From a virus: a stretch of DNA of 29,980 nt. This document shows positions 9,073 through 25,417 of this stretch, piece by piece (positions within the stretch are counted from its first letter, which is position 1; every line of letters begins with the position of its first letter). The notes under the pieces were generated by a model that saw nothing but the letters and a program-made list of their open reading frames with translations, did not search any database and had not been told where the DNA came from. Both the position numbers and the translations under genes were made by a program. The stretch lies in IMG/VR virus record IMGVR_UViG_3300025849_000150, positions 1-29,980 of that record; one strand, 5' to 3'.

Positions 9073-10460
9073 TAAGTAACTCTTTCTATTTCTTCTTCAA
9101 ACTCTATTTGTTCAGGTTGAGTTGTATTACCTGTTTTAGATTGTCTAACCCTAGATACTAATTGATCAAATTGTTTACCGCCAGCTTCACTTGATCCATC
9201 ACCTGCGTGGGCAACTACATCTGCTGGTATTACATATTCATCTTTAGATAAAGCTGCTGGTTGTACCCCATCTATCATAGCTGGTACAAAGTCATCAACT
9301 CCCCCTCCTGCTCCATCAATCATCCTTCCTTGTGATGACATCATTTGTTCTACTTCTGCTGCTAGTGCCATTAATCCTTCTTCACCATATACTTCAAGGT
9401 ATTTATTAAATACTTGTTTAGGATTAGGATGTTTGCCCATAAGTGCCATAATAGTTTCTTCTTCTAATCTTTCACCAGTTTGGTTTTCTTCAGGCATTCC
9501 ACCTTCAGCAAATCCTTGTACTCTACCTCCAGCTGCTTTACCTACATTCATATTCATATTAGGAATATTCATTTGTTGTGGATTCATTCCAATATTAGAA
9601 AATGTATTTGTAACAGATGAAGGTCTATTAGCTAAACTTTGTGCTTGAGCAGCTGCATTTGCAGCTTCAACTTGTTCTTGTTCAAATGTTTTGCCTCCAC
9701 TTTCAGCAAAAGCTTTTTGTAAATTAGCTGCGGTTGCAGCATTTTTAGCTGCTTGAAACTCTCCTTCTGTTCTTGGTCCTGTTGCTGTTTCTAAAGCCAG
9801 TTGTGTTTCTGCTGCTCTGTCTTGTAAACCTTGATCTATTGCAAGAGGAACTATAGGTTCTTGTATTATTGGTATTTGTGGAACAAATCTATCGGCTCCT
9901 CCTTCAACTACTTGTTTTGTAAATTGAGGTAATGGAATACTTTCACGATCAAAATCTTGAAAGTCTCTATTGTAAGTATCTAAATAATCAAAGGAATCAA
10001 ATTCTATTTCAGGAAACTTTGGTGCTGGTAATGTTTCATAAACAGGTGGTGGATCAAAAGGAATGGTTGGTAATTGTGGTTGATTTAAGAAAGGATTTCC
10101 TTGGAAAGAATTATATCCAAATGGATTGAATCCGCCTCCGCCTCCGAATCCGCCTCCAGATTTACCTCCACGTCCGCCTCCATATATTGGAAAAGGCTGA
10201 AACCTTGGTGGTGGCGGTGTATATCCTCTAATACCTAAAGGTTGGAATCCTTGTACACCTTGATTAAGTCCTGCGTATTGTTGTTGCAATGAAGGTCTTG
10301 GTGGTGGCATTCTTCTTATATTACCGAACCCACCAAACTGTCCTGTGTTTGCTTTGCCTGCTGTTCTTCCGCCTACAGGACCAATAGGATATTGCGATTG
10401 GAAATAATCCGCTCCAAAATCAGGGATATTAGTTCCTCCACCTTTTGCTCCTTTTGCCAT
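9072..10460 (-). CDS. Glycine/proline-rich virion protein with conserved 'VIPADVV' C-terminal domain
   Basis: 462 aa. Residues 1-150 are low complexity, with Gly-rich (GGGRGGKSGGGFGGGGGFNP) and Pro/Phe-rich tracts. Residues about 205-280 are Ala/Glu/Gln-rich helix. Residues 309-323 carry a Gly-Gly motif (AAGGRVQGFAEGGMP). Residues about 330-375 are acidic and helical. Residues about 378-444 hold GRMIDGAGGGVDDFVPAMI and LSKDEYVIPADVVAHAG, then SEAGGKQFDQLVSRVR. This last block matches, from memory, a module at the ends of many phage structural and tape-measure-associated proteins (IPA-type 'LSDGEFVIPADVV'). Function is unknown. It overlaps both neighbours by one base. Confidence 0.87.
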   Translation of the reverse strand: MAKGAKGGGTNIPDFGADYFQSQYPIGPVGGRTAGKANTGQFGGFGNIRRMPPPRPSLQQQYAGLNQGVQGFQPLGIRGYTPPPPRFQPFPIYGGGRGGKSGGGFGGGGGFNPFGYNSFQGNPFLNQPQLPTIPFDPPPVYETLPAPKFPEIEFDSFDYLDTYNRDFQDFDRESIPLPQFTKQVVEGGADRFVPQIPIIQEPIVPLAIDQGLQDRAAETQLALETATGPRTEGEFQAAKNAATAANLQKAFAESGGKTFEQEQVEAANAAAQAQSLANRPSSVTNTFSNIGMNPQQMNIPNMNMNVGKAAGGRVQGFAEGGMPEENQTGERLEEETIMALMGKHPNPKQVFNKYLEVYGEEGLMALAAEVEQMMSSQGRMIDGAGGGVDDFVPAMIDGVQPAALSKDEYVIPADVVAHAGDGSSEAGGKQFDQLVSRVRQSKTGNTTQPEQIEFEEEIERVT

Positions 10461-12139
10461 TAGTTATCTCTTTTTCTATATTCGTCTATAGCTTCGTAAA
10501 GTTCTAAAGCACCCTTAGTAAGAACAGGTGCTGCTGCTTCTATTCCTCTAACAACAGGATTGTATTGTCTGTTAAATGTTGCCATCCCTCTATCTATTCT
10601 ATTGTCTGGGTCTGTTGGAACAAACATTCTATCTAGTGATGCTGTTTGCATATTTCTTATATCTGCTAATGATGGTGCTTGATAAGGCTGTGGTGTCATT
10701 ACATCATTTAAAGTTCTTTGTGTAGGTGTACTAATAGGATCAGCCATTCTTCCTAGTCTTGGATCAATCATAGGTGCTGACATACTTCTAGCTAATTGTT
10801 CTTGTATAGCTTGATCTATTTTCATTCTTTCTAAATCTTCTGAACTACGTGCTATTTCTTCTTGTGCAGGCATACCACCTGTTGCCATCTTAATAAGACC
10901 ACCCATGTTTTTCATGTTGCCTTCTATAGCTTTGCCTCTTGTTCTTTCATATGAAGATAGCGTTCCATCATTATCAAGATCAGCTTTACTTGGATTCTGT
11001 AAAGGCATACCACCAGCAGCTAACATATCTGTAGGTACTTGCATTGCATCCATACCTGCAACCATATCAACTGGTACTGTGCCTATCATCTGACGTTTCA
11101 TTTCTTCTTCTGTATTTGGTTTGTCATCATCAGAACCATAATATTTATCTAATACCATAGGTAAAAAAGGTTGCACACCCATACCTTGCATTGCTTTACC
11201 AGCTAATGCTAATCCTGACATAGGAGGTAAAAAATCATAAGGATTACTTACTTTACCACCCTCATCAAATTCAGGTCCAGATGGAAAAGGATTGCCTCCT
11301 ATAAGCATTTGCTCACCACCAAAGGCTGAACCAAATGGATCGCCTCCACTTCCCGGAATCATAGTTCTTTGTTCTGTAGGCATGTATGGTCCTTCATAGT
11401 CGCCAAATGGATCAGGTTCTTCTGCTGGCATGTCATAGTCCATTGGTACATACATTTCACCAACAAGTCCTGATGCTGCTGCTGGCACACCTTGTGTCAT
11501 TAAAGCTTGTCCTTGACTTATGCCTTGACCTTTTAGTACTGCTGCATCACTTGCTCCTGATGTAATTCCTAAATTACTACCTAGTTGATTTAAAAATCCA
11601 CCAGAGGTAGGTACAGCTACATTACCCATTCCTAATGTGCCTGTAGTTGCAGCATTTAAATCTTGTAAAGTATTTATCTGTGGCATAGCAACAGTTGATG
11701 CTGGTACTGCTGCTTGTGCTGCTTGTCCTGCTGTTGCTTCTATTGCTTCAGTTCCGGGTATCTCTGTAGGTGCGCCCGGCATAATTCCTTTAAGTAAACC
11801 ACCTGTTAGTCCACCCATTATTCCAGCTGTTATACCTTCTTTTAAACTACCACCTTCGGCAATAGTACCTAGTCCTGTACCTAATGCAGATGCTCCTACT
11901 GTTCCAAGTGTTGCACCTAATGCTGTGCCACCTAATAGTGTTGGTGCAAGCAATGATCCTAGAAGGGGCAGAAACGCTTCTGGTTGCCCTGTTTGTGGGT
12001 TTATAGTCAACTGACCAGTCGGTGATAGTTTTGCCAAGGCATCGACTTCTATGGGGTTCATATGAACCATCATAGTATCGCCATATCTCCCCTGTGTGGC
12101 TAGTTGATCTGCTGCATTTTTAAGTGGAAAGTTACTCAT
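10460..12139 (-). CDS. Large virion protein with hydrophobic glycine-rich segment (ejection/tape-measure-like)
   Basis: 559 aa. The N-terminus has GRYGDTMMVHMNPIEVDALA and LSPTGQLTINPQTGQPEAFL, signatures I associate with marine podovirus virion proteins. Residues about 55-125 are a long Gly/Ala/Leu-rich hydrophobic stretch (LLGSLLAPTLLGGTALGATL, then TAGIMGGLTGGLLKG) suited to membrane penetration. The middle is Gly/Met/Pro-rich. MGGLIKMATGGMP starts at M412 and repeats the motif of the 566-aa protein. The C-terminus (about 520-559) is helical. A role in DNA ejection through the envelope is inferred from the hydrophobic segment and gene order. The start at 12139 follows a plausible GGAGACCACT ribosome site. 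Confidence 0.87.
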   Translation of the reverse strand: MSNFPLKNAADQLATQGRYGDTMMVHMNPIEVDALAKLSPTGQLTINPQTGQPEAFLPLLGSLLAPTLLGGTALGATLGTVGASALGTGLGTIAEGGSLKEGITAGIMGGLTGGLLKGIMPGAPTEIPGTEAIEATAGQAAQAAVPASTVAMPQINTLQDLNAATTGTLGMGNVAVPTSGGFLNQLGSNLGITSGASDAAVLKGQGISQGQALMTQGVPAAASGLVGEMYVPMDYDMPAEEPDPFGDYEGPYMPTEQRTMIPGSGGDPFGSAFGGEQMLIGGNPFPSGPEFDEGGKVSNPYDFLPPMSGLALAGKAMQGMGVQPFLPMVLDKYYGSDDDKPNTEEEMKRQMIGTVPVDMVAGMDAMQVPTDMLAAGGMPLQNPSKADLDNDGTLSSYERTRGKAIEGNMKNMGGLIKMATGGMPAQEEIARSSEDLERMKIDQAIQEQLARSMSAPMIDPRLGRMADPISTPTQRTLNDVMTPQPYQAPSLADIRNMQTASLDRMFVPTDPDNRIDRGMATFNRQYNPVVRGIEAAAPVLTKGALELYEAIDEYRKRDN

Positions 12140-12148
12140 AGTGGTCTC

Positions 12149-12481
12149 CTAATCTATTTCCAACACACCTATTACGATGTGAAATTTATCTGCTGTACTG
12201 GCAGTAAGCTTTATTATATCTAATTCATCTAAAACTAACACCTCTCCGTTAGTTAAAAATCCTTTGCGAGTTGTTGCAGCTATGGACTCTATATCCCAAG
12301 TAGCTGTTACACTTTCACTCGTGTCTGTTACCTGTACAGTAAGTGTCATTGCACTACTGCCATCTACATTGTAAGCACTTAATGTTTTTACTATGGCTGT
12401 TTTATTATCAGGTACTGTGTAAACGCTAGTAGCATTTGTTGTTGCTAGTGTTGTTATTACTTGTGTATATCTATTTGCCAT
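12149..12481 (-). CDS. Small beta-rich structural protein
   Basis: 110 aa from MANRYTQVITTLATTNATSV. An in-frame ATG 15 bases upstream (MVYFI-) would lie inside the preceding gene. I prefer the start at 12481 because it forms a TAATG overlap with the 55-aa gene before it and gives a sensible N-terminus. The sequence alternates hydrophobic and Thr/Ser residues (VYTVPDNKTAIVKTLSAYNV, MTLTVQVTDTSESVTATWDI), typical of an all-beta virion protein. There is no membrane segment or catalytic motif. Its place between the gp10-like gene and the internal proteins suggests a minor tail or head-surface component. The family is not named with confidence. Confidence 0.8.
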   Translation of the reverse strand: MANRYTQVITTLATTNATSVYTVPDNKTAIVKTLSAYNVDGSSAMTLTVQVTDTSESVTATWDIESIAATTRKGFLTNGEVLVLDELDIIKLTASTADKFHIVIGVLEID

Positions 12482-12648
12482 TATGAAATATACCAATCAA
12501 ATGCTTGTGATACCTCTCTGATATTATCAGGTGAATCTATTTGCACGAAGTTTAAACGCAGTTGATTTATTAATCTACGTATATAATCCGCACTATATTC
12601 TTCAGGTGGTATTTCTAATGGAGTGTTTACATTGAATGCTTCGCTCAT
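12481..12648 (-). CDS. 55-aa conserved small phage protein
   Basis: Short frame from MSEAFNVNTPLEIPPEEYSA to SQAFDWYIS followed by TAA. It is too short for a 60-aa cutoff but well supported. Its ATG overlaps the TGA of the upstream 614-aa gene (ATGA), and its TAA overlaps the ATG of the downstream gene (TAATG). It fills the only hole in this part of the block exactly. It is acidic at the N-terminus, with a central amphipathic helix (DYIRRLINQLRLNF). Function is unknown. It could be a small neck or tail accessory protein. Confidence 0.8.
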   Translation of the reverse strand: MSEAFNVNTPLEIPPEEYSADYIRRLINQLRLNFVQIDSPDNIREVSQAFDWYIS

Positions 12649-14489
12649 CTTCTTCCATCCGCTTTAATGTCAAACCTTGTATCTCCTAGTCTCCAGCTAT
12701 TATCTACATCTGTGCTTTCTATTCTAACTCTCATCTGTCTTGCTCTTGCTCTAACATAAGCTACACCAGTTGTATTAGTTACAGTTGCAGTTGTTGCAGT
12801 GTTTAAACTACCTAAAGGAAAGTCTCTAGTCTTTATTGAGTATGTAAGTTCAGGCTCTGTATCTGTACCTATAAAAGCAACATCAGGTATTAATCTTTGA
12901 ATGTGCATGAATTGATTACCATCACCTGCATCAAAGTCTGCACTTTCTACAAAGGCTGTCATTGCTGAACCATCATCATTAGAACCTACTTCATGTTCAT
13001 ATAAAAAATTAGATGATGTACCACTAAAACCTGCTGCTAAAGGGTTACTTGAAGCACCTCCAGCATCTATCCATGATGTTCTTGGTAATGTACCTATTGA
13101 CCATGTTTGCTCAAGATAATTATAAGTAACATATCTATCTATTTCTTCTGATGTACTTGAACAATAGAACCATGATACTTCGTTAAACTGTGCATTCCGT
13201 GTAGCAAATACTTTAAATGTTTGTCCATAATTAAAATCTTCGAATACATATGCTCTTACTGTACAGGGTAAAGATTGAACTGAACCTGAATACATATAAA
13301 AATTATCTTGATCCATAAAATAAACCACATTATTAGCATTTATAAATGCTTGTGGTGATACTGTGCTTGTACCTTCTGTTATTAAATTAATACCAAATAT
13401 AAAAGGAGGACCAATAAACTGCATAGAATATAAAGAAGTATCTGTAAATATAACTATTTCTTGTCTTGTTCTAACTGCTCCTACAATTTCAGAACCTGAT
13501 GAAAGCCTTAAACCTCCAGCAGTATTATTAGTCTTTGGTGTCCATTGTGCAGCGTTTTCTTGATCTGACCATCTAACCTGCATAGGGTCTTGTGTTGTAG
13601 TTCCAATAGGATTACATCCCATACAAATAATATGCCTATCTATTTCTGAAACAATTATTTGATTTGCTATTGTAGGTGTATCAGATGCATTAGTAAGTGT
13701 AGAAAAATCTACTGCTCTTGTAGTTTCTCCATTTGTTTTGTCCCAATAATAAATACTTCCACCTCTTGGATTAGCAACTAAATCTTCTCCAAAATTATCT
13801 AATGTCCATAATCTAAGTTGTGTAGAAAAACTATTAATACCACCACCCCAAGAACTTTGACCCCAGTTACCTGAACCAAAACCGAATCCACTTGTGTAAA
13901 AATCAGAACCTATATTGATTTGATAAGCACCATCAACTCCTGCACCACCATTACCTGTATCACTACTATTGGCAGTTACTGTATCTCCTGATGTATCTTT
14001 AGCAATAAATGTATATACGTTTACATTTGTAACTGATGCAATTTCATATTCTTGATTTAATACAGCTGCTGTTATTAGACCACCTAGACTTGCTGAACCA
14101 GCAATAGTAACAAAATCACCTTTGTTTGCTCCATGATCAGAATCGGTAGCTGTAATAGTTGAACTGCCATCTGTAGCTGCAAATGTAATTCCGTTAGTTG
14201 TTGTTGCTCTTACAGGTGTAATGTCATAAAAAGCATTACCTTTAAGTAAATATAATTTTATATGTGTACCTAAACCTATAAATTTATCTGTGTCTAAACC
14301 AATCCATTGATGTAGTTTTCTTGCCGAGCCTAAAAAACTATTGATAGACTTCTTAACCCATCCTCCTATTTTTTCAGGACGACCTGCACGAAATCTTATT
14401 TTGTCAGCATCAAACCAATTACCTTCATTACTATATGAAGTTCCTTCTTTATTTATGCCGGGTTTAAATGTATACCTAGCTAATGGCAT
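12645..14489 (-). CDS. P22 gp10-like tail/neck stabilisation protein (tentative)
   Basis: 614 aa. The start MPLARYTFKPGINKEGTSYS and the segment WFDADKIRFRAGRPEKIGGW are characteristic of a protein common in marine podoviruses. Such proteins are often related to the P22 gp10 packaged-DNA stabilisation (tail hub) family. The rest is beta-rich with many Asn/Thr/Gly, for example REIVIFTDTSLYSMQFIGPP and NVVYFMDQDNFYMYSGSVQ, suggesting a beta-propeller. P22 gp10 is shorter (about 470 aa), so an inserted domain is likely; the segment at about 90-190 (TITATDSDHGANKGDFVTIA) could be it. The C-terminus (RQMRVRIESTDVDNSWRLGD) looks like a beta domain. Identification rests on remembered family features, not a search. 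Confidence 0.85.
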   Translation of the reverse strand: MPLARYTFKPGINKEGTSYSNEGNWFDADKIRFRAGRPEKIGGWVKKSINSFLGSARKLHQWIGLDTDKFIGLGTHIKLYLLKGNAFYDITPVRATTTNGITFAATDGSSTITATDSDHGANKGDFVTIAGSASLGGLITAAVLNQEYEIASVTNVNVYTFIAKDTSGDTVTANSSDTGNGGAGVDGAYQINIGSDFYTSGFGFGSGNWGQSSWGGGINSFSTQLRLWTLDNFGEDLVANPRGGSIYYWDKTNGETTRAVDFSTLTNASDTPTIANQIIVSEIDRHIICMGCNPIGTTTQDPMQVRWSDQENAAQWTPKTNNTAGGLRLSSGSEIVGAVRTRQEIVIFTDTSLYSMQFIGPPFIFGINLITEGTSTVSPQAFINANNVVYFMDQDNFYMYSGSVQSLPCTVRAYVFEDFNYGQTFKVFATRNAQFNEVSWFYCSSTSEEIDRYVTYNYLEQTWSIGTLPRTSWIDAGGASSNPLAAGFSGTSSNFLYEHEVGSNDDGSAMTAFVESADFDAGDGNQFMHIQRLIPDVAFIGTDTEPELTYSIKTRDFPLGSLNTATTATVTNTTGVAYVRARARQMRVRIESTDVDNSWRLGDTRFDIKADGRR

Positions 14490-14490
14490 T

Positions 14491-14733
14491 TTATTTTTCT
14501 TTAGTTTTGTCTATGCCATTTAAAACAGGTTCTTCAATTACTTCTAAGGTACTTTGATAACCCACTAAAGCTGTAACTCTAATATCTAATTGATATTGTA
14601 GTTGAGCCATTTGCTCTCTAAGATTTTGAATTTCTTGTTGCAAAGTTTCTGTATAAGCGATTCTTTGTTGTAATTGAGGGTCTACAGGTTGGTCTGTAGT
14701 TTCAGTTGTTTCTACTGCTTTTTCTTCAGTCAT
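14491..14733 (-). CDS. Small coiled-coil protein
   Basis: 80 aa. The central part (QQRIAYTETLQQEIQNLREQ followed by MAQLQYQLDI) is a clear heptad-type coiled coil between an acidic, Thr-rich N-terminus and a charged C-terminus. There is no membrane segment. It lies between the paralogous 96-98-aa pair and the gp10-like gene. It may be a tail chaperone or a virion assembly factor. Nothing in the sequence fixes the function. Confidence 0.75.
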   Translation of the reverse strand: MTEEKAVETTETTDQPVDPQLQQRIAYTETLQQEIQNLREQMAQLQYQLDIRVTALVGYQSTLEVIEEPVLNGIDKTKEK

Positions 14734-14742
14734 TTTTTATCC

Positions 14743-15033
14743 TTATGAATTAGCTGCTATATAAGCTTTACCAGTTGTAACTCCGCCACTACAAGTAGTT
14801 TTTTTACTTGAAGATGAGCCGACTACGTTAGGTGTATCATCATCTGAATCAACAGGTTCATAAAGCAAGATAGTTTCTAAGTGGTCAACATTACGTTGTA
14901 CCAATTCATTTATTTCGGCTTGCGTAGAGCCATCTAAAACGTACTCAGAATCGCTGCCATTCGTATTAATGTCGTTGATAAGCGTTACGCTATCTGTTGC
15001 TGCTGTTAAGCATTCTGCTACTGTTTGAGCCAT
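14743..15033 (-). CDS. Paralogous small protein B beside the tail fibre
   Basis: 96 aa, diverged duplicate of the next gene upstream. Shared features in order are AQT-x(3)-LT-A-x-DSV-x-(L/V)IN-x-I, then Q(A/S)EIN-(E/T)-(L/M)V, N-V-(D/K)-HLE-(T/S)-(I/V)-L, VAGSS/VVGSS, and the ending TTGK-(A/N)-YI-(A/T)-ANS. The middle differs: this copy is Asp-rich (PVDSDDDTPN) and has KKTTCSGGVT. The helical segment with HLE looks like a small helical bundle. No motif reveals activity. Position directly after the fibre suggests a tail-fibre assembly or receptor-related accessory protein, by inference. Confidence 0.8.
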   Translation of the reverse strand: MAQTVAECLTAATDSVTLINDINTNGSDSEYVLDGSTQAEINELVQRNVDHLETILLYEPVDSDDDTPNVVGSSSSKKTTCSGGVTTGKAYIAANS

Positions 15034-15043
15034 ATTATTCTCC

Positions 15044-15340
15044 TTATGAATTTGCGGTTATATAATTTTTACCTGTAGTAATAGCTGTTGTATAAGCAGA
15101 TTTATCTACTGAAGAACCAGCCACATCTGGATAGCGTTTAGTGCCGTCATAAGCAAGTACGCTTTCTAAATGTTTTACATTATTATCTACCATAGTGTTT
15201 ATTTCAGATTGCGACATTCCTATTGTTGCTCTATAAGATTCACCATCATGTCCAATACCTGTTTTTATGTAATTAATTACATTTACTGAATCCATAGCTG
15301 ATGTAAGGGTTTGTGCTACTGTTTTGATTGGTATAGTCAT
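15044..15340 (-). CDS. Paralogous small protein A beside the tail fibre
   Basis: 98 aa, MTIPIKTVAQTLTSAMDSVN to TTGKNYITANS. It aligns end to end with the 96-aa gene that follows it, with the same start pattern, the same Q-S-E-I-N, VKHLESVLAYD and AGSS positions, and the same C-terminal NS. It is therefore one half of a tandem duplication. It contains IKTGIGHDGESYRATIGM, an insertion relative to the second copy. Family is unknown to me. The pair is immediately downstream of the S74 fibre gene. Confidence 0.8.
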   Translation of the reverse strand: MTIPIKTVAQTLTSAMDSVNVINYIKTGIGHDGESYRATIGMSQSEINTMVDNNVKHLESVLAYDGTKRYPDVAGSSVDKSAYTTAITTGKNYITANS

Positions 15341-15347
15341 AAATATT

Positions 15348-18128
15348 TTAGTTTAATTTTTTCTTAAGTTCTTCTACTTCTGCTGAAAGTTCTTGAACTG
15401 CTTTAATAAGAGGATGTATAAACATTTCTTGTGAAACAGATTGTATGCCTGTATTTTCTTCTACATCCCAACCACCGAAATCTTCAATGCTATGTTCATC
15501 AATAGCTTCCTTAACTTCTTGTGCTATTAAACCATACATTTTTTTATTATATTGTGGTTTTAATTGAGTTTCATCATAGTCGGGTAAGCTTGGGTCTATG
15601 TCTGCTTTTGCTTTCCAAGTAAAAGTTACTGGGTTTAAATCGTTAATAAAAGCTAAACCACAATCATTATTAGGTACAATATTTTCTTTGTATCTTTCAT
15701 CAGATACTCTTGTCCAAGAAGCGTTTGTATCAAAGTTATTATAAACTCTATCGTTACCAGTGCCTTTACCAAATGTAAATGTGTTATTACCATGACTTAA
15801 TAGACCATTACCTAAAACAATTTGATTATTTCCACTATAAACACTTACGTTAGTTCCATAACCTACTAACGTGTTAGCATATCCCGTAGTTATTACATCA
15901 CCAGAACTACGACCAATGCACGCATTTGAGTAACCAGTAGTGATATTCTCTCCTGCATAATTACCAAAAGCTGTATTTCCTGTTGCGGTTGTCATGTCTA
16001 CTAAAGAAGCGTAACCTACTGCTGTATTGTCATTAGCTGTTGTAGATTCTGACATACTAAAATGACCAACTGCCGTATTAAACACATTACCAGTAGTAGT
16101 ATTTTGTTTAGTTAGGGCAACATTACCAATAGCAATTTGATACGAACCACCTGTTACTGCGTCTAAAGCAGTATCGCCAATAGCTAATTGATAAGTAGAA
16201 GTAGTAACTGAAGAAGCAGCACCAACACCTATTGCTATATTATTTGCACCAGTAGTACATGCTCCTAATGCTCCATATCCTATAGCAGTTACAGATGAGG
16301 CTGTTGTTACTGCGTCTGCTGCTGTTGCACCTACTGCTGTGTTTTCTGCACCTGTAGTGTTTGCTACCATAGCATTCATACCAACTGCTGTGTTGTTTGC
16401 TCCTGATGTATTAACTGCTAATGCTTGACCACCTAAAGCAGTATTGTTTGCTGCTGTTGTAGCTACGCCTAATGTGTTGTAACCAACTGCTGTGTTGAGA
16501 CTTCCTGTAGTAAGTGCATCTCCTGCAGTAGCACCTACTGCTACGTTATATTCACCTGTAGTATTTGCTATTAATGAACCATAGCCAACTGCGGTGTTAT
16601 TAGAAGCTGTGGTGTTTGCTGCAAGTGCACTATCACCAACAGCAGTATTGTTTCCACCAGTAGTTTGTGCAGTAAGAGCATTTCTTCCAACTGAAACTGT
16701 GTAATCTCCTGTGGTATTGGCATCTAAGGAACCTGAACCAACTGCGACATTTCCTGTACCTGTAGTGTTTGCCTTTAAAGAATCGTGTCCAACCGCAGTA
16801 TTATTTGAAGCAGTTGTATTATTATCTAAAGAACCTTGTCCTACTGCTGTGTTAGAATTACCTGTGGTGTTAGCATCTAAAGCACTTGAACCAACTCCTG
16901 TATTTTCAATACCTGTGGTATTTACAAGTAAAGCACCTTTACCGACTGCTGTGTTTTGTGTACCTTCAGTATTTGCACTTAACGATTCAAAACCAACAGC
17001 AGTATTTCTAATTCCAGTTGTATTAGCATCTAAAGATGCAGAACCTATACCGACATTTGAGTGTCCTGTAGTGTTGGCTACAAGTGCAGCTTGACCAACA
17101 GCAGTATTGTTAGAAGCAGTTGTATTTGCTTTTAAAGCCGAATCACCTACAGCAGTATTTGAAGTACCTTCTGTAATAGCAGTTCCTGCGTTATATCCAA
17201 ATGCACTATTAAAGTTTCCTGTGGTATTAGCAATCATAGATAATCTACCTACAGCAGTATTTCTTCTTCCTGTAGTGTTTGCTAATAAGGAACTTGAACC
17301 AACTGCTACATTGTCATACCCTGTAGTGTTGGCTGTTAAGGCACTTTTACCAATAGCAACATTATCATCACCTGTAGTCAAAGCTGCAAAAACATCTACA
17401 CCTACACCTACATTATTATCTGCTGCATCTATAGTACCTGTAGTAGTATCTCCAAGCATAAATGAACTAGTACCAAAAGTTTTATAGTTTAGTGCTGAAC
17501 CATTAATAGTTAGTGCGTCTGTTTCTGTAGTTCCATCTACGTCTATAGAACCAGCTAAATCTATGTCACCACTAAAAGTAGCTGTTTGTGCAAAAGTTGT
17601 ACCACCTCCATCAGCTATAGTTATAGCGTCATCACCATCTGTAAATTCTATTAATGGGGTTTGTATTGCTGATGATGTTTCTATAATGCCACTTGTTTGC
17701 AAATTTAAAGAAGCAAAAGCATCAGTTACCTTTGCTCCACTACCTGCACCATCTAAGTAAACCATCTTAGTTGCACCCGTTGGTATAGTTACAGTTGCTC
17801 CACTACCTTGCTTTATAATAATAGACTGTGAACCACTTGTTCCATTCTCAATAATATGTACTCTATTTAAAGTATTAGGTGCAATAGTAATCGTACAAGT
17901 TGAGTCTAATGTACCTGTATATTTAACATACATAGCCCTTACAGGGTCTGTAGCTCCATCTGCTACTGTAGAAGTATGCGTATCTGCGTTGGTTGTTATG
18001 CCTTCTGTTCCAAAGCCTAAAGCTTCGCCAATCAGTTCCAAATTTGTATTCGTTGATGTTCCCCATGTACCCGACTCATCACCGGTTGCAATTTCTTTTA
18101 ATCTTAAATCATTTACATAAGTTGCCAT
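15348..18128 (-). CDS. Tail fibre with 17-residue repeats and C-terminal S74 intramolecular chaperone
   Basis: 926 aa. Residues 1-140 (MATYVNDLRLKEIATGDESG, GTWGTSTNTNLELIGEALGF) are the conserved N-terminal virion-attachment part seen in marine phage fibres. Residues 150-238 are beta-helix-like. Residues about 239-768 are some 31 tandem units of the type NTAVGxxALxANTTGxx, resembling YadA-head/trimeric beta-roll repeats. The last 124 residues are a Peptidase S74 intramolecular chaperone. VSDERYKENI gives the expected catalytic Ser809 and, five residues on, Lys814, followed by KKMYGLIAQEV and a final coiled coil (VQELSAEVEELKKKLN). By family knowledge the chaperone folds the trimer and then cuts itself off before Ser809. 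It is the likely receptor-binding protein. Confidence 0.93.
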   Translation of the reverse strand: MATYVNDLRLKEIATGDESGTWGTSTNTNLELIGEALGFGTEGITTNADTHTSTVADGATDPVRAMYVKYTGTLDSTCTITIAPNTLNRVHIIENGTSGSQSIIIKQGSGATVTIPTGATKMVYLDGAGSGAKVTDAFASLNLQTSGIIETSSAIQTPLIEFTDGDDAITIADGGGTTFAQTATFSGDIDLAGSIDVDGTTETDALTINGSALNYKTFGTSSFMLGDTTTGTIDAADNNVGVGVDVFAALTTGDDNVAIGKSALTANTTGYDNVAVGSSSLLANTTGRRNTAVGRLSMIANTTGNFNSAFGYNAGTAITEGTSNTAVGDSALKANTTASNNTAVGQAALVANTTGHSNVGIGSASLDANTTGIRNTAVGFESLSANTEGTQNTAVGKGALLVNTTGIENTGVGSSALDANTTGNSNTAVGQGSLDNNTTASNNTAVGHDSLKANTTGTGNVAVGSGSLDANTTGDYTVSVGRNALTAQTTGGNNTAVGDSALAANTTASNNTAVGYGSLIANTTGEYNVAVGATAGDALTTGSLNTAVGYNTLGVATTAANNTALGGQALAVNTSGANNTAVGMNAMVANTTGAENTAVGATAADAVTTASSVTAIGYGALGACTTGANNIAIGVGAASSVTTSTYQLAIGDTALDAVTGGSYQIAIGNVALTKQNTTTGNVFNTAVGHFSMSESTTANDNTAVGYASLVDMTTATGNTAFGNYAGENITTGYSNACIGRSSGDVITTGYANTLVGYGTNVSVYSGNNQIVLGNGLLSHGNNTFTFGKGTGNDRVYNNFDTNASWTRVSDERYKENIVPNNDCGLAFINDLNPVTFTWKAKADIDPSLPDYDETQLKPQYNKKMYGLIAQEVKEAIDEHSIEDFGGWDVEENTGIQSVSQEMFIHPLIKAVQELSAEVEELKKKLN
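15825..17414 (-). repeat. About 31 tandem 51-bp repeats in the tail fibre
   Basis: Each unit codes 17 residues with the pattern N-(T/V)-A-(V/I)-G-x-x-(A/S)-L-x-A-N-T-T-(G/A)-x-x. I count about 31 units, one of them extended by three residues (KQNTTTGNVF). Divergence between copies is substantial at the DNA level, with a few closely similar pairs (NTTASNNTAVG occurs several times). A multiple-of-three unit lets copy number vary without a frameshift. The repeats also keep antisense frames open. Confidence 0.9.
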
Positions 18129-18158
18129 AATTTTTCCTCTGTATAAATATTAAACCAT

Positions 18159-18689
18159 TTAGGCTGCTACGTCACTCCATGTTGTAGTTTGTGACGAATC
18201 TACAGCAGACCATGTGTTATTAACTCCCGGAACTACATCACTCCAAACAGTGACTGTTCCTACTGCTCCTGTAGCTAATACATTGTTTACAGCTACATTA
18301 GCATCTGCTTGTACTGTTTCTGTACCTAGTGCAGTTGTTCCGGCAAGACCAGTTATTGAAAGTATATTGACTGTAACAAGTCCTATACTTCCTAAAGCAC
18401 TTGTACCTGCTACTCCTGTAGGAAATACATTTGCATCACAAGTTACTGTCTCATCCCCAAGACCTACAGTTGATGCATTACCTGATACACCTTGTATAGC
18501 AAAACCAGCAGCTACAACTGAGTTTAATGCAGATGTTCCGACTACACCTGTTTCAGTTACATTAGCATCACAAGTAACAGTTTCATTGCCTAATGCAGAT
18601 GTGCCAGCTAATCCTGTTACAGCTACCTCTACTGAGGTAACACCCCAAGAATCTGTACCCCAACCTGCTCTACCCCAACCAGTTGCCAT
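18159..18689 (-). CDS. Repeat-containing minor structural protein (WGRAGWG start)
   Basis: 176 aa. It starts MATGWGRAGWGTDSWGVTSV, a Trp/Gly-rich head. Most of the rest is built from units of roughly 20 residues with TGLAGTSALG, ETVTCDANV and TGVAGTSALG recurring; TCDANV occurs twice and QADANV once. The end (TWSAVDSSQTTTWSDVAA) repeats a TWS/SDV unit. This is likely a beta-solenoid or fibrous virion protein. It lies directly upstream of the tail fibre gene, so a baseplate, fibre-anchor or second adhesin role is plausible. There is no signal peptide or enzyme motif. Confidence 0.8.
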   Translation of the reverse strand: MATGWGRAGWGTDSWGVTSVEVAVTGLAGTSALGNETVTCDANVTETGVVGTSALNSVVAAGFAIQGVSGNASTVGLGDETVTCDANVFPTGVAGTSALGSIGLVTVNILSITGLAGTTALGTETVQADANVAVNNVLATGAVGTVTVWSDVVPGVNNTWSAVDSSQTTTWSDVAA

Positions 18690-18697
18690 TTAAATCC

Positions 18698-19129
18698 TTA
18701 TGCTATTCTTATAACAGCGTTTGATGCGTCAGCAGTTGGAAACGTAATAGTAAATGAACCTGCTGTAGATGTTTTATCTCCACCAAAATCAAATACAGCT
18801 ACTGCTGGATCACCCGAAGCAGTGTCATTGAAGATCATACATCCTCTAGCAGTTATAGTAGCAGTGCCAAATGTAAGATCAGCAAAGTCTGTAAATGCAG
18901 TTGTGCCTGAAGTTGCAGGATCGACACGTGTAAGTGCGTTTCCTTTGGCTGTATAGTTAGTACCAGTAGCTTCTTGTGAAGTTGTATACGCAGTAGTAGC
19001 TGCACTCATAGTAGCACTACTTGTATACAGTGCTAATCTAAATGTGTTTCCACCTGAGTTTTTAAAATTATGCACACCTTCCAATAGTTCTTTCTTGAAT
19101 GAAGTACACATTGCTTGTGTTATAGCCAT
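18698..19129 (-). CDS. Conserved phage structural protein (143 aa)
   Basis: MAITQAMCTSFKKELLEGVH followed by NTFRLALYTSSATM and a beta-rich C-terminal half (ARGCMIFNDTASGDPAVAVF, DFGGDKTSTAGSFTITFPTA). This layout, a short N-terminal helix and then a beta sandwich, recurs in phage structural proteins sitting between connector and fibre genes. It has one Cys near the start and one in the beta part. Start TAATG overlaps the previous gene. It is probably a tail or fibre-base component; name and exact family are uncertain. Confidence 0.82.
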   Translation of the reverse strand: MAITQAMCTSFKKELLEGVHNFKNSGGNTFRLALYTSSATMSAATTAYTTSQEATGTNYTAKGNALTRVDPATSGTTAFTDFADLTFGTATITARGCMIFNDTASGDPAVAVFDFGGDKTSTAGSFTITFPTADASNAVIRIA

Positions 19130-19419
19130 TATAGCCTCCTTATAATATTAGCAAGGTCTTTATGTCCTTGCTGTTCTAATTGATTGCATACTGTGCATAT
19201 GTGATTCTTAATAGCTTCACGCATATAGTATCCAATTACCTGACGAGCAGCATCTTTAAATATATGTGCTTGCGCTTTTATACTCTCATCTGCTGTATCG
19301 CTTATTGAAATCAGTCTATCAGTTGCCATATCTGCAACCTCATCAACTGTATGTCCTCTATAATCTGTAGTTTTTACACCAAGATTGCCTACTGATATTT
19401 CAAATTTATCTGTTTGCAT
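19129..19419 (-). CDS. Small helical hypothetical protein (96 aa)
   Basis: MQTDKFEISVGNLGVKTTDY, then GHTVDEVADMATDRLISISD and a helical C-terminal half (HIFKDAARQVIGYYMREAIK, ICTVCNQLEQQGHKDLANII). It contains a CxxC pair (CTVC) with no second pair, so a zinc site is not supported. Genes of this kind occur in phage structural clusters; function is unknown. It overlaps both neighbours by one base. Confidence 0.8.
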   Translation of the reverse strand: MQTDKFEISVGNLGVKTTDYRGHTVDEVADMATDRLISISDTADESIKAQAHIFKDAARQVIGYYMREAIKNHICTVCNQLEQQGHKDLANIIRRL

Positions 19420-20186
19420 TAGTAAACAATAGGCTCCGGTGGTGTACTTCCATTTGATCTTTCATCTACAATCCATTCTTTAGGATTTTCTCTACCTATT
19501 ATTCCATGCGGTACCATTTTTTCTTGTACTATCTCAGAATACTTACAAACTTTTAATTCTCCGTTTTCTGCATAAGAAATTACTGGATCGTTTAAACGAT
19601 GGTAACCATAAAGTTTTTCTTTCATATCTACATTAGCATCTAAAAGATTACATCTTACAGCTACAGCTACATCAATGTCCCTCTCCATGCATTTGCCTAA
19701 CCAATATTCACAACATGCTCTACCCATTTCAGCAAAGTGTGCATTAGTATTGTAAGTAAAATCTGTACCAAACATACTGATTGTTCCTACATTATTCCAA
19801 TATGCAAATGCTATAGCATAAGCAACAGTATTATTTAAGTAAGCACATCCTGTATCTTTAATTACAGCTTCTATTGGGTATTCTTCAACAGCAGGAACTC
19901 TTGAATCTAGTTCGCAAGAGTAAATAGGATAATCTACTTTAGGTAATTCTTCTCTCATCATTTGTGTCATAGATGCTGCTTCATCAGAATCTAAAAATCT
20001 TGACATAGGATCAAGTATAAATGCTCTGTCTGCTTTATTAACTACACCTATCATCGCATTAATAACCCAAACTTCGTCAAACTTCTTGCTATGTAATAAA
20101 GAAAAATGAAAATCTATTTGACTCATCCCCATAGCAACTATAGCTATGTGTTTACCTTCTAGTTCTAATATTTTTTCTTTTAACAT
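19419..20186 (-). CDS. Rossmann-like DUF115/MptE-type protein (possible glycosyl- or pyrophosphoryl-transfer)
   Basis: 255 aa. The N-terminus (GKHIAIVAMGMSQIDFHFSL) is a beta-strand/loop/helix like a nucleotide-binding start. It is followed by FDEVWVINAMIGVVNKADRA and FILDPMSRF. Then comes TGCAYLNNTVAYAIAFAYWN-NVGTISMFGTDFTY, whose N-(T/S)-x-x-x-A-x-x-x-A...G-(T/F)-D pattern resembles DUF115 / motility-accessory-factor-like proteins found in phages and surface-glycan loci. The family members I recall are linked to sugar or phosphate transfer, but no single catalytic residue can be named. The region ACCEYWLGKCMERDIDVAVA has three Cys. It sits among neck genes, unusual for an enzyme. It could modify virion proteins; this is inference. 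Confidence 0.85.
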   Translation of the reverse strand: MLKEKILELEGKHIAIVAMGMSQIDFHFSLLHSKKFDEVWVINAMIGVVNKADRAFILDPMSRFLDSDEAASMTQMMREELPKVDYPIYSCELDSRVPAVEEYPIEAVIKDTGCAYLNNTVAYAIAFAYWNNVGTISMFGTDFTYNTNAHFAEMGRACCEYWLGKCMERDIDVAVAVRCNLLDANVDMKEKLYGYHRLNDPVISYAENGELKVCKYSEIVQEKMVPHGIIGRENPKEWIVDERSNGSTPPEPIVY

Positions 20187-20836
20187 TATTGCCCTTCTAT
20201 TCTGTATTGCCCACTTCTATAAGCATCTTTTCTATTTCTACCATCATTTTCTATAATAAGTTTTTCTAATGCATCTTTAAATCTAGTTTCATATGTTTGT
20301 AAAACATCAGCTTCACCTTTCATAAATATATATGCTTCAACTAAAGAACCAAACAAAAGAGCATCAGGTGCATTAGTACCAAGCCAACTTGTTCCATCTG
20401 ATGATGCAGTAATTGATTGTGGTAAATAAAAATAATGTAGTTCTACTGTATACGTTGAGTCAGGAGTAGGTGCTAATATTAAATGTGTATCATCAAACTG
20501 TGCATAAAACTCAGGTAATCCTGTATTAGATGCACTAGCCGGATAAGCTTCTCTGATAAAGTTTACATCTTTATTTAAAAGAAAACTGTAGTTACTACTT
20601 GAATCAAGAACAGCTAGAGAGTAAGGATATAAAAAATCATCAGGTAATACTAAGTATGGGTTATCAGCTGTGACAGAAGCGGTTTGATTTTTTCTGTAAT
20701 CAGGTAATTGTACTGAACCATTAATTCTATTCTCAGCTTGTTTTATTAGAGTAGACAGGTTGTTAACAAATGTGGTCTCTGTATTTTCTGTGTAATCTTG
20801 TATAGCTGTTTTTAATGTTGTAAATGTAAATGACAT
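20186..20836 (-). CDS. Head-tail connector/adaptor-like protein (216 aa)
   Basis: It starts MSFTFTTLKTAIQDYTENTE with VNNLSTLIKQAENRINGSVQ and LPDYRKNQTASVTADNPYLV. These signatures recur in marine phage structural clusters between capsid and tail genes. The N-terminal half is helical and the central part beta-rich (FYAQFDDTHLILAPTPDSTY, TVELHYFYLPQSI). The C-terminus is helical (DALLFGSLVEAYIFMKGEAD, YETRFKDALEKLII). This helix-beta-helix plan fits adaptor proteins that stack under the portal. Its position right after the gp4-like gene supports a neck role; the exact family is uncertain. Confidence 0.84.
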   Translation of the reverse strand: MSFTFTTLKTAIQDYTENTETTFVNNLSTLIKQAENRINGSVQLPDYRKNQTASVTADNPYLVLPDDFLYPYSLAVLDSSSNYSFLLNKDVNFIREAYPASASNTGLPEFYAQFDDTHLILAPTPDSTYTVELHYFYLPQSITASSDGTSWLGTNAPDALLFGSLVEAYIFMKGEADVLQTYETRFKDALEKLIIENDGRNRKDAYRSGQYRIEGQ

Positions 20837-21180
20837 TAGCTTGTTGTAATTTTTAAGTTTCCTATATTACCTTTCAGTACCATGTTGCTTAAACTTGAAT
20901 CACCAAATGCAGAGTTCCATCCACCTATAGGATTGAATCCAAACAATCCTCTACTAGCTTCTAAATCGTTTTGTGGTCTAGGATTCCTGAGTGCTTCTGG
21001 ATCATTAAGTCTTAATCTACCTAACTGAAGTTGAGGTTGATCTTTATCAAGAACATCTTTGCCAACAAGTAGACCAGTTCTTTTTTGATTTTTAATTTGA
21101 TTCCTTAAATCTTTTAAAGGATATCTAAAACCAGTTCTATCACATATACCATATGCATGTTTGCCTTTTGCAAATGACAT
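20836..21180 (-). CDS. Conserved small phage structural protein (CDRTGFRYPL family)
   Basis: 114 aa from MSFAKGKHAYGICDRTGFRY. The frame is open further upstream (MFREVTN...). I choose 21180 because a GGGAGG ribosome site ends a few bases before it and it leaves only one base after the preceding stop. The motif CDRTGFRYPLKDLRNQ and the Pro/Asn-rich middle (QLQLGRLRLNDPEALRNPRP) are typical of a small protein in marine phage neck clusters. The C-terminus is Gly/Ser-rich. The Cys lies in a rubredoxin-like knuckle half (CDR) but no partner cysteines are present. Function is unknown. Confidence 0.82.
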   Translation of the reverse strand: MSFAKGKHAYGICDRTGFRYPLKDLRNQIKNQKRTGLLVGKDVLDKDQPQLQLGRLRLNDPEALRNPRPQNDLEASRGLFGFNPIGGWNSAFGDSSLSNMVLKGNIGNLKITTS

Positions 21181-21181
21181 A

Positions 21182-21868
21182 TTAGTAACCTCCCGGAACA
21201 AATCTTACAGCTGCTTTGACTCTATTCTCTTCAGAGGCAAGCTTCCATTGTTCTTCGTATTGTTGTTTTAAAAAAGGTATTCTTTGTGAAGCTTCTGGAT
21301 TCTTCATAGCTAAATAATAAGCTAAGCCTGCTACTAAACATGGCAAGAAAACTTTAGGTATATCTATAGTATTAGAAGCTGGGTTGCCTGCATCATATAT
21401 TTGTCTAAGTCTATACCAAACTACTTTATAAGTTTCTGAACTATCAGGTATAGGATATAAAGTAAATGTTGTAGTACCACTATTTCTATTTACTAATATT
21501 TCATTAGGTCTACCTTGATCTAATTTATTAGGTACATCTGAATATTGTGAAAAAGATATTCTAGTTAAAGCTGTATCGCTTTGTGAATTGCTTTCACCAT
21601 CATTAGTTCTAAGATGATGTTCTAGTAAATCAATAGTATCTCCTTCTAATGTATATGTAGAAGTACCAGCAGTAAGGGTTGTACTACCTGATTCAACTTG
21701 CCATAGATTCAAACCTCTATTAGCCCATTCAAGCATCATAAGATTTATACTACGTCTAGCTGTACGCAAGTCATAGCCAGTACGCATTTCTAAACCAGCT
21801 AGTTCAAAAGCTTCTTCTGCTGCTTCTGCTATATCTAAATCAAAACTATTAGTAGTGGCTGTAGCCAT
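21182..21868 (-). CDS. P22 gp4-like tail accessory / head-tail connector protein (tentative)
   Basis: 228 aa. It begins FDLDIAEAAEEAFELAGLEM and RTARRSINLMMLEWANRGLN, the helical start typical of P22 gp4-like tail accessory factors that dock on the portal. A beta part follows (ISFSQYSDVPNKLDQGRPNE, ILVNRNSGTTTFTLYPIPDS, YKVVWYRLRQIYDAGNPASN). The end is helical (LPCLVAGLAYYLAMKNPEAS, FLKQQYEEQWKLASEENRVK). The segment GRPxEILVNR...FTLYPIP is the piece I most associate with this family. Some P22 gp4 proteins have muramidase activity; no catalytic site can be read here. Confidence 0.87.
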   Translation of the reverse strand: MATATTNSFDLDIAEAAEEAFELAGLEMRTGYDLRTARRSINLMMLEWANRGLNLWQVESGSTTLTAGTSTYTLEGDTIDLLEHHLRTNDGESNSQSDTALTRISFSQYSDVPNKLDQGRPNEILVNRNSGTTTFTLYPIPDSSETYKVVWYRLRQIYDAGNPASNTIDIPKVFLPCLVAGLAYYLAMKNPEASQRIPFLKQQYEEQWKLASEENRVKAAVRFVPGGY

Positions 21869-21871
21869 ATT

Positions 21872-22087
21872 TTATTTCTTTTTAGGTGCTTTATATCCAG
21901 TCATACCACCAGTTCCATAACTTAGCATACCGCCTTCTTTTCTTTTAACTAATTCTTGATAATCTTCAACCATTCCGCCTTCGTCATAGTTGATGACCAT
22001 ATCTTTACCAGTCTTTTTACTTTCTTCTCTTGCAGCTTTCATACCCGATCCATCGTATGAAAACTTTTTATTACCTACATTTGGCAT
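21872..22087 (-). CDS. Small Gly-Gly-Met motif protein (71 aa)
   Basis: MPNVGNKKFSYDGSGMKAAR, then three Gly-Gly-Met sites: EGGMV at 36-40, EGGML at 51-55 and GGMTG at 60-64. It ends in a basic tail (KAPKKK). There is no predicted membrane segment. A good ribosome site (AAGGAG) precedes the ATG. The same kind of Gly-Gly motif occurs in the large internal virion proteins far downstream. The gene lies between the nuclease and the connector gene. Function is unknown. Confidence 0.8.
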   Translation of the reverse strand: MPNVGNKKFSYDGSGMKAAREESKKTGKDMVINYDEGGMVEDYQELVKRKEGGMLSYGTGGMTGYKAPKKK

Positions 22088-22122
22088 CTTTTACTCCTTA
22101 TGTTTAAACGTGTTACTATATT

Positions 22123-22539
22123 TTAAAGTTCCAATATACCATTATCAATTAAAATTTGTCTGTTCTTAAGATGTTCTTCTTCTATATCATCTTTACTTTG
22201 TCCAAAGTATTTGACTGCATGATGATTGTCAACCATTGATTGATTTATGTTTACACCATCTACTACTACATCACCTAATACTCTTCCAAATTTTCCTCTT
22301 GAATCTTTAAGTTTTGTTTGTATACAAACCTTTTCTCCTTCTTCTATGGCTTTTCTTAAGAAAGCCGAAGCCATTTTTCCTCTAACCTTCTCATCCAAGT
22401 TACGAGTACGTGACTCGGGAGTATCAATACCATATAGCCTAACGCGAGACTTATAAAGGATATCAAAGCCAAGGTCCAACACAACATCGATAGTATCTCC
22501 ATCGACAATTTTTTCAACTTTACAATTATATTCATACAT
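22123..22539 (-). CDS. Staphylococcal-nuclease-type (SNase/thermonuclease) endonuclease
   Basis: 138 aa, one complete OB-fold SNase domain with no signal peptide, so it acts in the cytoplasm or in the virion. VDGDTIDVVLDLGFD gives the calcium-binding Asp. RLYGIDTPES carries the equivalents of SNase Arg35, Asp40, Thr41 and Glu43 (here R34, D39, T40, E42). KFGRVLGDVVVDGVNINQSM carries the equivalent of Arg87 (R86). All catalytic positions are present, so an active calcium-dependent phosphodiesterase is expected. It sits among small basic proteins in the structural block, not in a replication block. Host DNA breakdown, processing of packaged DNA or a virion-carried nuclease are the options. Confidence 0.95.
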   Translation of the reverse strand: MYEYNCKVEKIVDGDTIDVVLDLGFDILYKSRVRLYGIDTPESRTRNLDEKVRGKMASAFLRKAIEEGEKVCIQTKLKDSRGKFGRVLGDVVVDGVNINQSMVDNHHAVKYFGQSKDDIEEEHLKNRQILIDNGILEL

Positions 22540-22778
22540 TACCTATACCTCTTAGAAATCTTTGCAGCAGCTTTAGGTTGCTTAGAGAACTGTTTACCTT
22601 TTTTTGTATCTGCTCTTTTCTTTTTAGTAGATGCAGCATACTGTTTACTAGACATTGCCTTGATGGCTTTCTCAGGCAAATACCTTTCGCCTGTTTCTTT
22701 ACTTGGCTTGCCACTTTTTGTTTTCCATTTTTGTTTAGTCCAGTCTTTTAAAGATTTTTGTGACTTCGCTATGCTCAT
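22539..22778 (-). CDS. Small basic phage protein (KSLKDWTKQKW family, DUF5872-like)
   Basis: 79 aa and very Lys-rich. The core KSLKDWTKQKWKTKSGKPSK and TGERYLPEKAIKAMSSKQYA match, from memory, a small protein widespread in cyanophages and other marine phages (probably DUF5872). The C-terminus (KKKRADTKKGKQFSKQPKAA) is nearly all basic. The charge suggests nucleic-acid binding, but no structure-based motif confirms it. It overlaps the nuclease gene after it and the 55-aa gene before it by TAATG junctions, so the three are probably translated together. Confidence 0.88.
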   Translation of the reverse strand: MSIAKSQKSLKDWTKQKWKTKSGKPSKETGERYLPEKAIKAMSSKQYAASTKKKRADTKKGKQFSKQPKAAAKISKRYR

Positions 22779-22945
22779 TACTTCTTAGCTTTTACCTTTG
22801 CTTTCTTAGACAAGTCTTTGAAGTGAAATAACTTAACACTAGTTTTAGTATGGGTTTTATTAGTGTGTAACTCTCCATTAGGCATTTTGTGAGAACTGCC
22901 TTTGTGTTCAGTACCATCCCTTTTGTAATGTTTAACTCCCTTCAT
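22778..22945 (-). CDS. 55-aa basic phage protein (HKMPNGELHT family)
   Basis: The frame runs from MKGVKHYKRDGTEHKGSSHK through MPNGELHTNKTHTKTSVKLF to KVKAKK and TAA. It falls below a 60-aa cutoff. It is supported by an ATGA overlap with the upstream gene, a TAATG overlap with the downstream gene, and a motif (MPNG-x-LH-T-x-K-THT) that I recall from marine phage small proteins. His and Lys make up much of it. A nucleic-acid-binding role is possible but unproven. Confidence 0.85.
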   Translation of the reverse strand: MKGVKHYKRDGTEHKGSSHKMPNGELHTNKTHTKTSVKLFHFKDLSKKAKVKAKK

Positions 22946-23160
22946 TTGTATCCTCCGCCTTTTTCTTTATATTTCTTAGCTAACATTTGTGCTTTACGTG
23001 CTGACCATTGACCTGCATTGCCACCTTTAGTACCTGCCTTAATACTTTTGAATAATTTTTTTCTCATATCAGGCTTAGTATAATTACCAGCTTCGTTTAC
23101 TTTTGATTTGTTTTTTTTGTCTGCCACTTGTTTTTTTATTTGTGTCCTACTAATTACCAT
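22942..23160 (-). CDS. Small basic phage protein (KAGTKGGNAGQWSARKAQ family)
   Basis: 72 aa. The segment CNEAGNYT-like NEAGNYTKPDMRKKLFKSIK and the tail AGTKGGNAGQWSARKAQMLA followed by KKYKEKGGGYK are strongly conserved, in my memory, among marine phage small proteins. It is Lys/Arg-rich with a GGGY end. A GGAGG-like element precedes the next gene. The short overlap with the 93-aa gene (7 bp) fits operon packing. Function is not established. Confidence 0.85.
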   Translation of the reverse strand: MVISRTQIKKQVADKKNKSKVNEAGNYTKPDMRKKLFKSIKAGTKGGNAGQWSARKAQMLAKKYKEKGGGYK

Positions 23161-24383: not shown

Positions 24384-24392
24384 TTATTGCTC

Positions 24393-25298: not shown

Positions 25299-25316
25299 AA
25301 TTAAGTCTCCTTAATA

Positions 25317-25358
25317 AATCTATTGTCTTGGCTTGTCTGCTAGGGCAGTCAATAGATT
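25317..25358 (-). other. Stem-loop in the capsid/downstream-gene spacer
   Basis: AATCTATTG on one side and CAATAGATT on the other form a perfect 9-bp stem, with an inner CTGC/GCAG pairing possible. It lies between the terminator behind the capsid gene and the AAGGAG of the 301-aa gene. On the minus strand it would be the 5' leader of any transcript starting here or reading through the terminator. It could protect a processed mRNA end. Confidence 0.55.
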
Positions 25359-25411: not shown

Positions 25412-25417
25412 AAGTTA

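Follow-up and report, generated by a model that had tools for sequence, protein, structure and literature searches.

A 17-residue repeat array in a viral tail fibre: probable remodelling by recombination between phages within an exchangeable distal cassette

Introduction

Does a tail fibre whose shaft is built from many copies of one short unit change its length by slippage among these copies, or is it remodelled in some other way? The question is raised by the IMG/VR virus record IMGVR_UViG_3300025849_000150, a 29,980-base stretch of a marine bacterial virus (here called the window) with long open reading frames on the minus strand, one of which encodes a 926-residue fibre protein with an array of 17-residue units and a C-terminal Peptidase_S74 domain. 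An earlier reading of the DNA (the original prediction) proposed that this array is easily variable by slippage or recombination. The explanation that we consider probable is that the array forms a beta-solenoid shaft, that this shaft belongs to a distal cassette which can be exchanged, and that it is remodelled by recombination between phages and not by slippage. Various aspects of this explanation are observed directly: the units are diverged in DNA, a minority of array pairs share mosaic blocks, lengths frequently differ by whole units, the anchor and the tip of the fibre are decoupled, and the cassette is replaced among close relatives.

Architecture of the fibre

The fibre gene consists of the following parts (window coordinates).

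15348..18128, minus strand: fibre gene, 926 amino acids; open reading frame with a match to a PHROG tail spike family (9.6e-98) and to other structural families
17532..18128, minus strand: N-terminal anchor, residues 1-199, common to marine phage fibres with other distal parts
15849..17438, minus strand: array of 31 units of 17 residues, residues 231-760, from the profile scan, lag-17 periodicity and AlphaFold2 strands
16104..16112, minus strand: three-residue insertion, residues 673-675, a register break between units 26 and 27 found by the profile scan
15705..15848, minus strand: short stem from the array to the putative cleavage site, residues 761-808, from the translation
15351..15704, minus strand: Peptidase_S74, or intramolecular chaperone autocleavage, domain (Pfam PF13884), residues 809-926, with a C-terminal helix

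The periodicity is evident in the protein. Within residues 201-760, identical residues recur at lag 17 at 245/560 positions and at lag 34 at 219, and the other lags from 10 to 33 give 30-79 identities. A profile of the unit (consensus over relatives DANTTGSRNVAVGYQAL), with its cut-off at the 95th percentile of shuffled-protein maxima, detected 31 units, all in frame and always spaced by 17 residues but for one spacing of 20, which occurs likewise in the relatives L006 and L008. All array calls rest on this one profile, trained on the relatives compared. The roughly 31 in-frame units of the original prediction are thus borne out, and its tract, placed at 15825-17414, is confirmed in location, with borders 24 bases off those found here.

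The relatives (numbered with the prefix L) form a pool of 341 loci, of which 340 come from viral contigs, some being overlapping pieces of the same contig, and one is the window's own. The anchor is present in 218 loci; 125 fibres are complete and 84 of these are distinct (49 with the array and 35 without), a set biased by the array-containing query. All relatives are assembled contigs, and pairs of them are not independent. Near-identical alleles were removed before pair counts, namely three of the 49 arrays for the gap and anchor/tip counts and four for the shared-block count; the count of units with a 90% match retained them, allelic pairs being left uncompared with each other. In the 49 arrays the spacing equals 17 residues in 1315/1498 cases.

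Structural models support a beta-solenoid of 17-residue beta coils. The AlphaFold2 model of the whole protein, built from 22 sequences (mean predicted local distance difference test score, pLDDT, 71), places one strand of five residues in every unit up to the 25th, with shorter strands or none in most later units, and has a helix at the C-terminus. Its best match is BpaC (7o23; Z 14.2, root-mean-square deviation 8.1, 297 residues aligned). For a 14-unit model (pLDDT 68) a long match list is led by an autotransporter fragment (TibA) and phage tailspikes, with Z about 16 and many deviations near 3. The two models favour different solenoid types, and Foldseek found no match at E ≤0.001 for either. 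A YadA-like, left-handed roll is therefore no more than a possibility; the Pfam family YadA_head is not listed for the window fibre at E ≤1 and matches 1/22 aligned fibres at 5.6e-4. The accessible part of PMC9543794 counts 42 layers around a Thr/Asn core in the beta-roll of BpaC, ten of which are missing from the related BoaC. The left-handed parallel beta-roll heads of BpaC and YadA resemble our array in their short coil repeats; however, the layers described in that part have 14 residues (15 in UspA1) against 17 here.

One regularity in the order of the units was noted separately. Units with Ala at position 6 (NTTA) are rarely adjacent, with 22 such pairs against 113 (standard deviation 8) expected from shuffled order in 83 arrays, truncated ones included; this avoidance is possibly a stacking rule of the solenoid.

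The S74 end assumed in the original prediction was recovered by a PF13884 match over residues 809-879 (E 2.4e-12; 47.4 bits against a curated cut-off of 22), of which Ser809 is the first residue, and by conservation of the Ser-Lys pair. Peptidase_S74 was matched in 22/22 aligned relatives (E up to 0.01), and Ser809 and Lys814, five apart, are invariant in all of them. In the array fibres Ser and Lys stand at the right spacing in 48/49 tips (45 found by motif search and three of the four others), L054 being the exception; the distance from the array end to the Ser is 12-112 residues in the 45/49 fibres with a motif-search match. The tip profile matched 49/49 array fibres by construction and was not used as a test; it matched 12/35 array-free fibres too. 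The tip resembles in structure the endosialidase and MyRF chaperone domains 3gw6, 3gud and 7dc3 (Z 8.0-9.4, deviation 2.6-3.1). The Ser-Lys pair and trimer-dependent cleavage are described in the available sections of PMC8326128 and PMC3742443, the former giving S911/K916 as the catalytic pair of endoNF. The window fibre agrees with these described endosialidase and MyRF domains in the domain match, the Ser-Lys spacing of five, the C-terminal helix and the structural match; it differs in that a long solenoid array precedes the domain, which is known from sequence and model. The S74 domain probably assists the trimerisation of the chains, after which it would remove itself by a cut before Ser809.

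From end to end the fibre has its N-terminal anchor, the solenoid shaft, the stem and finally the S74 domain, the probable aid to trimerisation. The array may serve as a stiff shaft, and possibly as a binding surface too, since about 48 residues would remain beyond it after the S74 cut.

The anchor has at least 589 related stretches in viral contigs and matches, at 35-50%, fibres of Roseobacter phages CRP-901/902, Synechococcus phage MinM2 and Pelagibacter phage HTVC023P. Patterns derived from the fibre protein gave a single weak match in genome contigs, to the anchor only; the protein matched no PDB sequence and nothing in NCBIfam at E ≤1. The capsid protein of the window phage has 72% identity with its counterparts in Synechococcus phage MinM2 and Planktothrix phage Pag-Yong1; the figure is 61-65% for Pelagibacter phages HTVC023P and HTVC027P, and about 54% for Roseobacter phages CRP-901/902. 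A megablast search of window positions 5500-29980 against the isolated-phage collection gave no match.

Divergence of the repeat units

Variability by slippage, as originally predicted, would have a repetitive DNA tract as its substrate, and here the tract is weakly repetitive. Tandem Repeats Finder reports just two short sub-arrays of 2.7 and 2.2 copies with 72-79% matches. Among the 26 units of the first perfect-register stretch the mean DNA identity is 55% and that of the best pair 80%; neighbouring units in the window have a mean identity of 0.577, the same residue is encoded by the same codon in 47% of cases overall and in 43% between neighbours, and the longest exact word recurring in the tract is 18 bp. 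The relatives give the same picture. Not one of 26,441 within-array unit pairs in the 49 distinct array fibres reaches 90% DNA identity, whereas 176/1547 units are matched at this level by a unit of another array. The longest exact self-repeat per array has a median of 18 bp and a maximum of 49 bp; L068 (49 bp) and L170 (38 bp), with the longest internal exact repeats, are the best candidates for real within-array duplication. The tempting step from a regular repeat in the protein to a slippage-prone repeat in the DNA is corrected here, since the first does not imply the second. In this the arrays also differ from BpaC, for which the accessible part of PMC9543794 describes near-identical tandem expansion.

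The idea that codons are chosen so as to avoid repeats in the DNA was considered and rejected. Neighbouring units share codons slightly more than in codon-shuffled arrays (mean z +1.0 over the 49 arrays; the window gives -1.1).

Array length does vary, often by whole units. The 49 array fibres have 11-57 units (median 31), in agreement with the variable shaft length of the original prediction, and 127/298 array gaps of at least five residues are multiples of 17, against 7/169 outside the arrays (counts from 69 non-independent pairs of array fibres at ≥60% identity). These two observations, together with the long internal repeats of a few arrays such as L068 and L170, are what favours slippage or unequal crossing over among the units of one array as a means to tune fibre length. 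However, within the window species the unit number is constant: 31 in 4/4 complete copies (the window, L002, L003 and L004), a small sample of assembled contigs that nevertheless differ by single bases. A further contig of the species, L005, starts inside the array and has 30 units as far as its end. Compared with the window, the fibre of L002 has no base differences, that of L003 one, in the array, that of L004 eight, at residues 226-252, and that of L005 four. Counts are also equal in L015 and L227 (32 units each; 95.8% identity over 13.8 kb) and in L028, L029 and L030 (37 each). Given the DNA divergence of the units and these constant counts, slippage was rejected as the source of variation and we regard it as very unlikely; within a single array it has no visible part in the remodelling.

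Exchange between arrays

Recombination, the other route of the original prediction, is supported by the data, but between arrays of different phages and by exchange of the whole cassette, not by expansion of a single array. Runs of at least three units at ≥85% identity were found in 17/990 pairs of 45 arrays. A sharp edge inside the array marks 14 of these runs, three of them at both ends, and in 11 the ordinal position differs between the two arrays; no run of three units appeared in the within-array control. With truncated arrays included (83 in all), 46/3403 pairs share runs of at least two units. For example, units 7-13 of L195 correspond to units 4-10 of L278 at a mean of 96%, with dissimilar units at either side. 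Units 23-31 of the window correspond to units 20-28 of L006 at 90-100% DNA identity, and the tips of these two fibres share 93% of residues; their earlier units are 50-76% identical, and L006 has three units fewer. In L040 and L133, units 1-8 are 100% identical, unit 9 falls to 76%, unit 11 against unit 10 to 62%, and the rest lies at 45-84%; their anchors are 80% and their tips 34% identical in amino acids, within a 4.9-kb alignment at 67% that includes the fibre. Such shared runs with abrupt ends point to recombination from array to array, and they concern a minority of the pairs.

The ends of the fibre tell a similar story. Over 1035 pairs, anchor identity and tip identity are uncorrelated (r = 0.007), and 97/114 pairs with anchors at ≥90% have tips below 60%.

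An alternative would be ancient duplication followed by passive divergence, with vertical descent, occasional loss or gain of units, and conserved blocks that are merely slow-evolving stretches. Neighbouring units are indeed more alike than shuffled order gives (z 7 at lag 1), similarity falls with distance along the arrays, whole-unit gaps lie within otherwise colinear alignments, and most array pairs have no shared block. This account is contradicted by sharp steps in DNA identity, such as that from unit 8 to unit 9 in L040 and L133, by blocks displaced by three, six or more units, and by the absence of correlation between anchor and tip. We therefore consider it unlikely.

Two other patterns were not retained. 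A rule that blocks move in multiples of three units (10/11 displaced runs) was dropped, since the wider set of 83 arrays gave 6/16 displaced block families; a three-unit period does not stand out within arrays either. Positions of alignment ends within the unit were not used as evidence for hot spots, since these end points are themselves biased by conserved codons.

Replacement of the distal cassette

Close relatives of the window phage carry different distal parts at nearly equal borders. The window type, haplotype A, has a cassette of about 3.0 kb with the array, the S74 end and small genes behind it, delimited as follows.

17530..17632, no strand: right cassette border; identity ends at 17530-17545 (haplotype B) and 17585-17632 (haplotype C)
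15044..15340, minus strand: small open reading frame, 98 amino acids, inside the swapped cassette according to the frame list and the haplotype comparison
14743..15033, minus strand: small open reading frame, 96 amino acids, inside the swapped cassette; its end resembles that of the 98-residue frame
14491..14733, minus strand: small open reading frame, 80 amino acids, in the cassette except for its last bases; a 68-residue frame takes this place in haplotypes B and C
14500..14508, no strand: left cassette border; flank identity resumes at 14508 (haplotype B) and 14500 (haplotype C)

In haplotype B, L067 is 97.8% identical to window positions 17530-26128 and 92.2% to 10138-14508, and between these flanks has an unrelated 1.58 kb with a 571-residue fibre, lacking array and S74, and two other small genes. 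L211, from a different data set, matches the window at 91-92% along the greater part of its downstream flank, and its cassette is identical to that of L067 over 1598 bp (100%). In haplotype C, L078 is 96.3% identical upstream and 98.2% downstream, L214 is 94.3% identical downstream, and their module, again without array or S74, is 99.2% identical between them over 1575 bp. Haplotypes B and C thus each recur in two contigs of different data sets. L069 (97.8% upstream) leaves the window sequence at the same right border as haplotype B and shares the B anchor (199/199 residues) and about 66 bp more, then differs until its contig ends at residue 281; with its residues 199-281 it is a further distal variant and is not counted as haplotype B. 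The last small gene is common to haplotypes B and C (90% over 222 bp), so the cassettes themselves are mosaic.

In haplotypes A, B and C a conserved anchor thus goes with different distal parts while the neighbouring sequence stays conserved, as is expected of an exchangeable module. Because close relatives carry B or C cassettes at nearly equal borders, the array is one of several distal modules within the group. A query with the anchor region returned 80 loci, in which 31 fibres are cut by the contig end and the 44 distinct complete ones comprise 12 with the array and 32 without.

The recurrence of haplotypes bears also on the possibility that the mosaics are false, made in assembly by fusing different phages at conserved codons of the repeat. 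In favour of such artefacts, the relatives are assembled contigs and short exact words are common to the arrays. On the other hand, 14/17 shared blocks have a mean identity of 90-98%, not 100%; haplotype B was found in both L067 and L211 and haplotype C in both L078 and L214, from different data sets; and breakage at contig ends is about equal in array fibres (55/135) and others (29/74, fibres cut before three units being counted here). We find chimeric assembly a highly improbable explanation.

In the small genes behind the fibre, the adjoining frames of 98 and 96 residues have similar ends of the form TTGKxYIxANS; other small frames occupy this place in haplotypes B and C.

Discussion

The scheme that emerges is one of exchange at two levels. 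In close relatives, the cassette is replaced by other distal modules at nearly equal borders, and array-bearing phages would swap runs of units by recombination inside the array. Because all units have equal length and motif, joins would stay in frame and in structural register even with a block at a different ordinal place, so that length would shift by whole units and parts of the shaft and the tip would be combined anew. Two phages in one cell could thus exchange sequence in the anchor, the array or the downstream genes and yield chimeras that still fold. The proposed exchange fits the general mosaicism of phages. An effect on reach and host range, suggested in the original prediction, is plausible, receptor binding by the fibre being presumed.

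Several observations weigh against recombination between phages as a full account. A clear shared block was seen in just 17/990 array pairs, and 171/298 array gaps are not multiples of 17. The closest tips go with fairly close anchors, 8/9 pairs with tips at ≥85% having anchors at ≥75%. Internally shared 12-bp words exceed those of codon-shuffled arrays (mean z 2.5), and this excess together with the likeness of neighbours at lag 1 indicates that older local duplication contributed to the arrays. Assemblers may collapse or cut near-identical repeats, and recent duplications are possibly under-represented. Finally, some junctions could be chimeric, the perfect block of L040 and L133 being the most exposed.

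Related fibres are known from cultured phages. A tblastn search found array-like fibres in Pelagibacter phages HTVC112P and HTVC111P, Methylophilales phage Venkman and Roseobacter phage CRP-1, with 38-40% identity over 72-74% of the query (64% for CRP-1). The genes concerned carry the labels tail fibre, tail structural or adhesion protein; no record covers 80% of the fibre query in this search. The available portions of PMC3909814 and PMC10504331 describe metaviromic islands, or hypervariable tail-fibre regions, of marine phages: pelagiphage fibres there combine a conserved N-terminus with repeats, S74 and a YadA-like end, and their C-terminal part under-recruits reads and so varies in the population. 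The variability reported in these portions comes from read recruitment, and they do not resolve units, block exchange or border-defined cassettes. In Alteromonas phages A5, V22 and P24 a fibre module is likewise common to otherwise unlike phages; however, those described in the accessible text of PMC10579305 are whole multi-gene modules, whereas here exchange also appears inside the array, with whole-unit changes of length. In Streptococcus thermophilus phage antireceptors, as far as the available part of PMC5601072 describes them, repeats also separate domains of a modular receptor-binding protein, but they are collagen-like and host range is determined by a separate variable region. A search of open-access literature titles for the unit motif or a 17-residue repeat gave no phage-fibre paper, and the available parts of PMC9599517 and PMC9004378 do not describe such arrays.

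Exchange of tail-fibre modules is well known, and is a known route to change attachment targets. Less usual is a modular shaft in which exchange at the level of units is directly readable; therefore the rate of swapping against that of duplication can be measured in marine phage populations in nature. For host recognition, haplotypes A, B and C of the close relatives are ready-made natural comparisons.

A bolder proposal would make the array itself the receptor-binding surface and its units a community-wide pool for in-register recombination, a combinatorial adhesin. If so, the units would be too unlike for internal collapse, and foreign blocks would be accepted at almost any unit. We hold this to be doubtful, and prefer the shaft within an exchangeable cassette.

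Other genes of the window

Just upstream of the fibre, on the minus strand, lies a gene of 176 amino acids (18159-18689) with internal repeats of its own, of the GTSALGxETVTCDANV type, and with no Pfam or PHROG match. Two nearby minus-strand genes (20186-20836 and 21182-21868) both match SU10_adaptor, which suggests a duplicated head-tail adaptor. A gene of at least 1837 amino acids (1-5511, minus strand) runs off the window end. Finally, the phage encodes a Cpn10 (GroES-like) co-chaperonin at 28400-28786 on the minus strand (Pfam E 7e-11).

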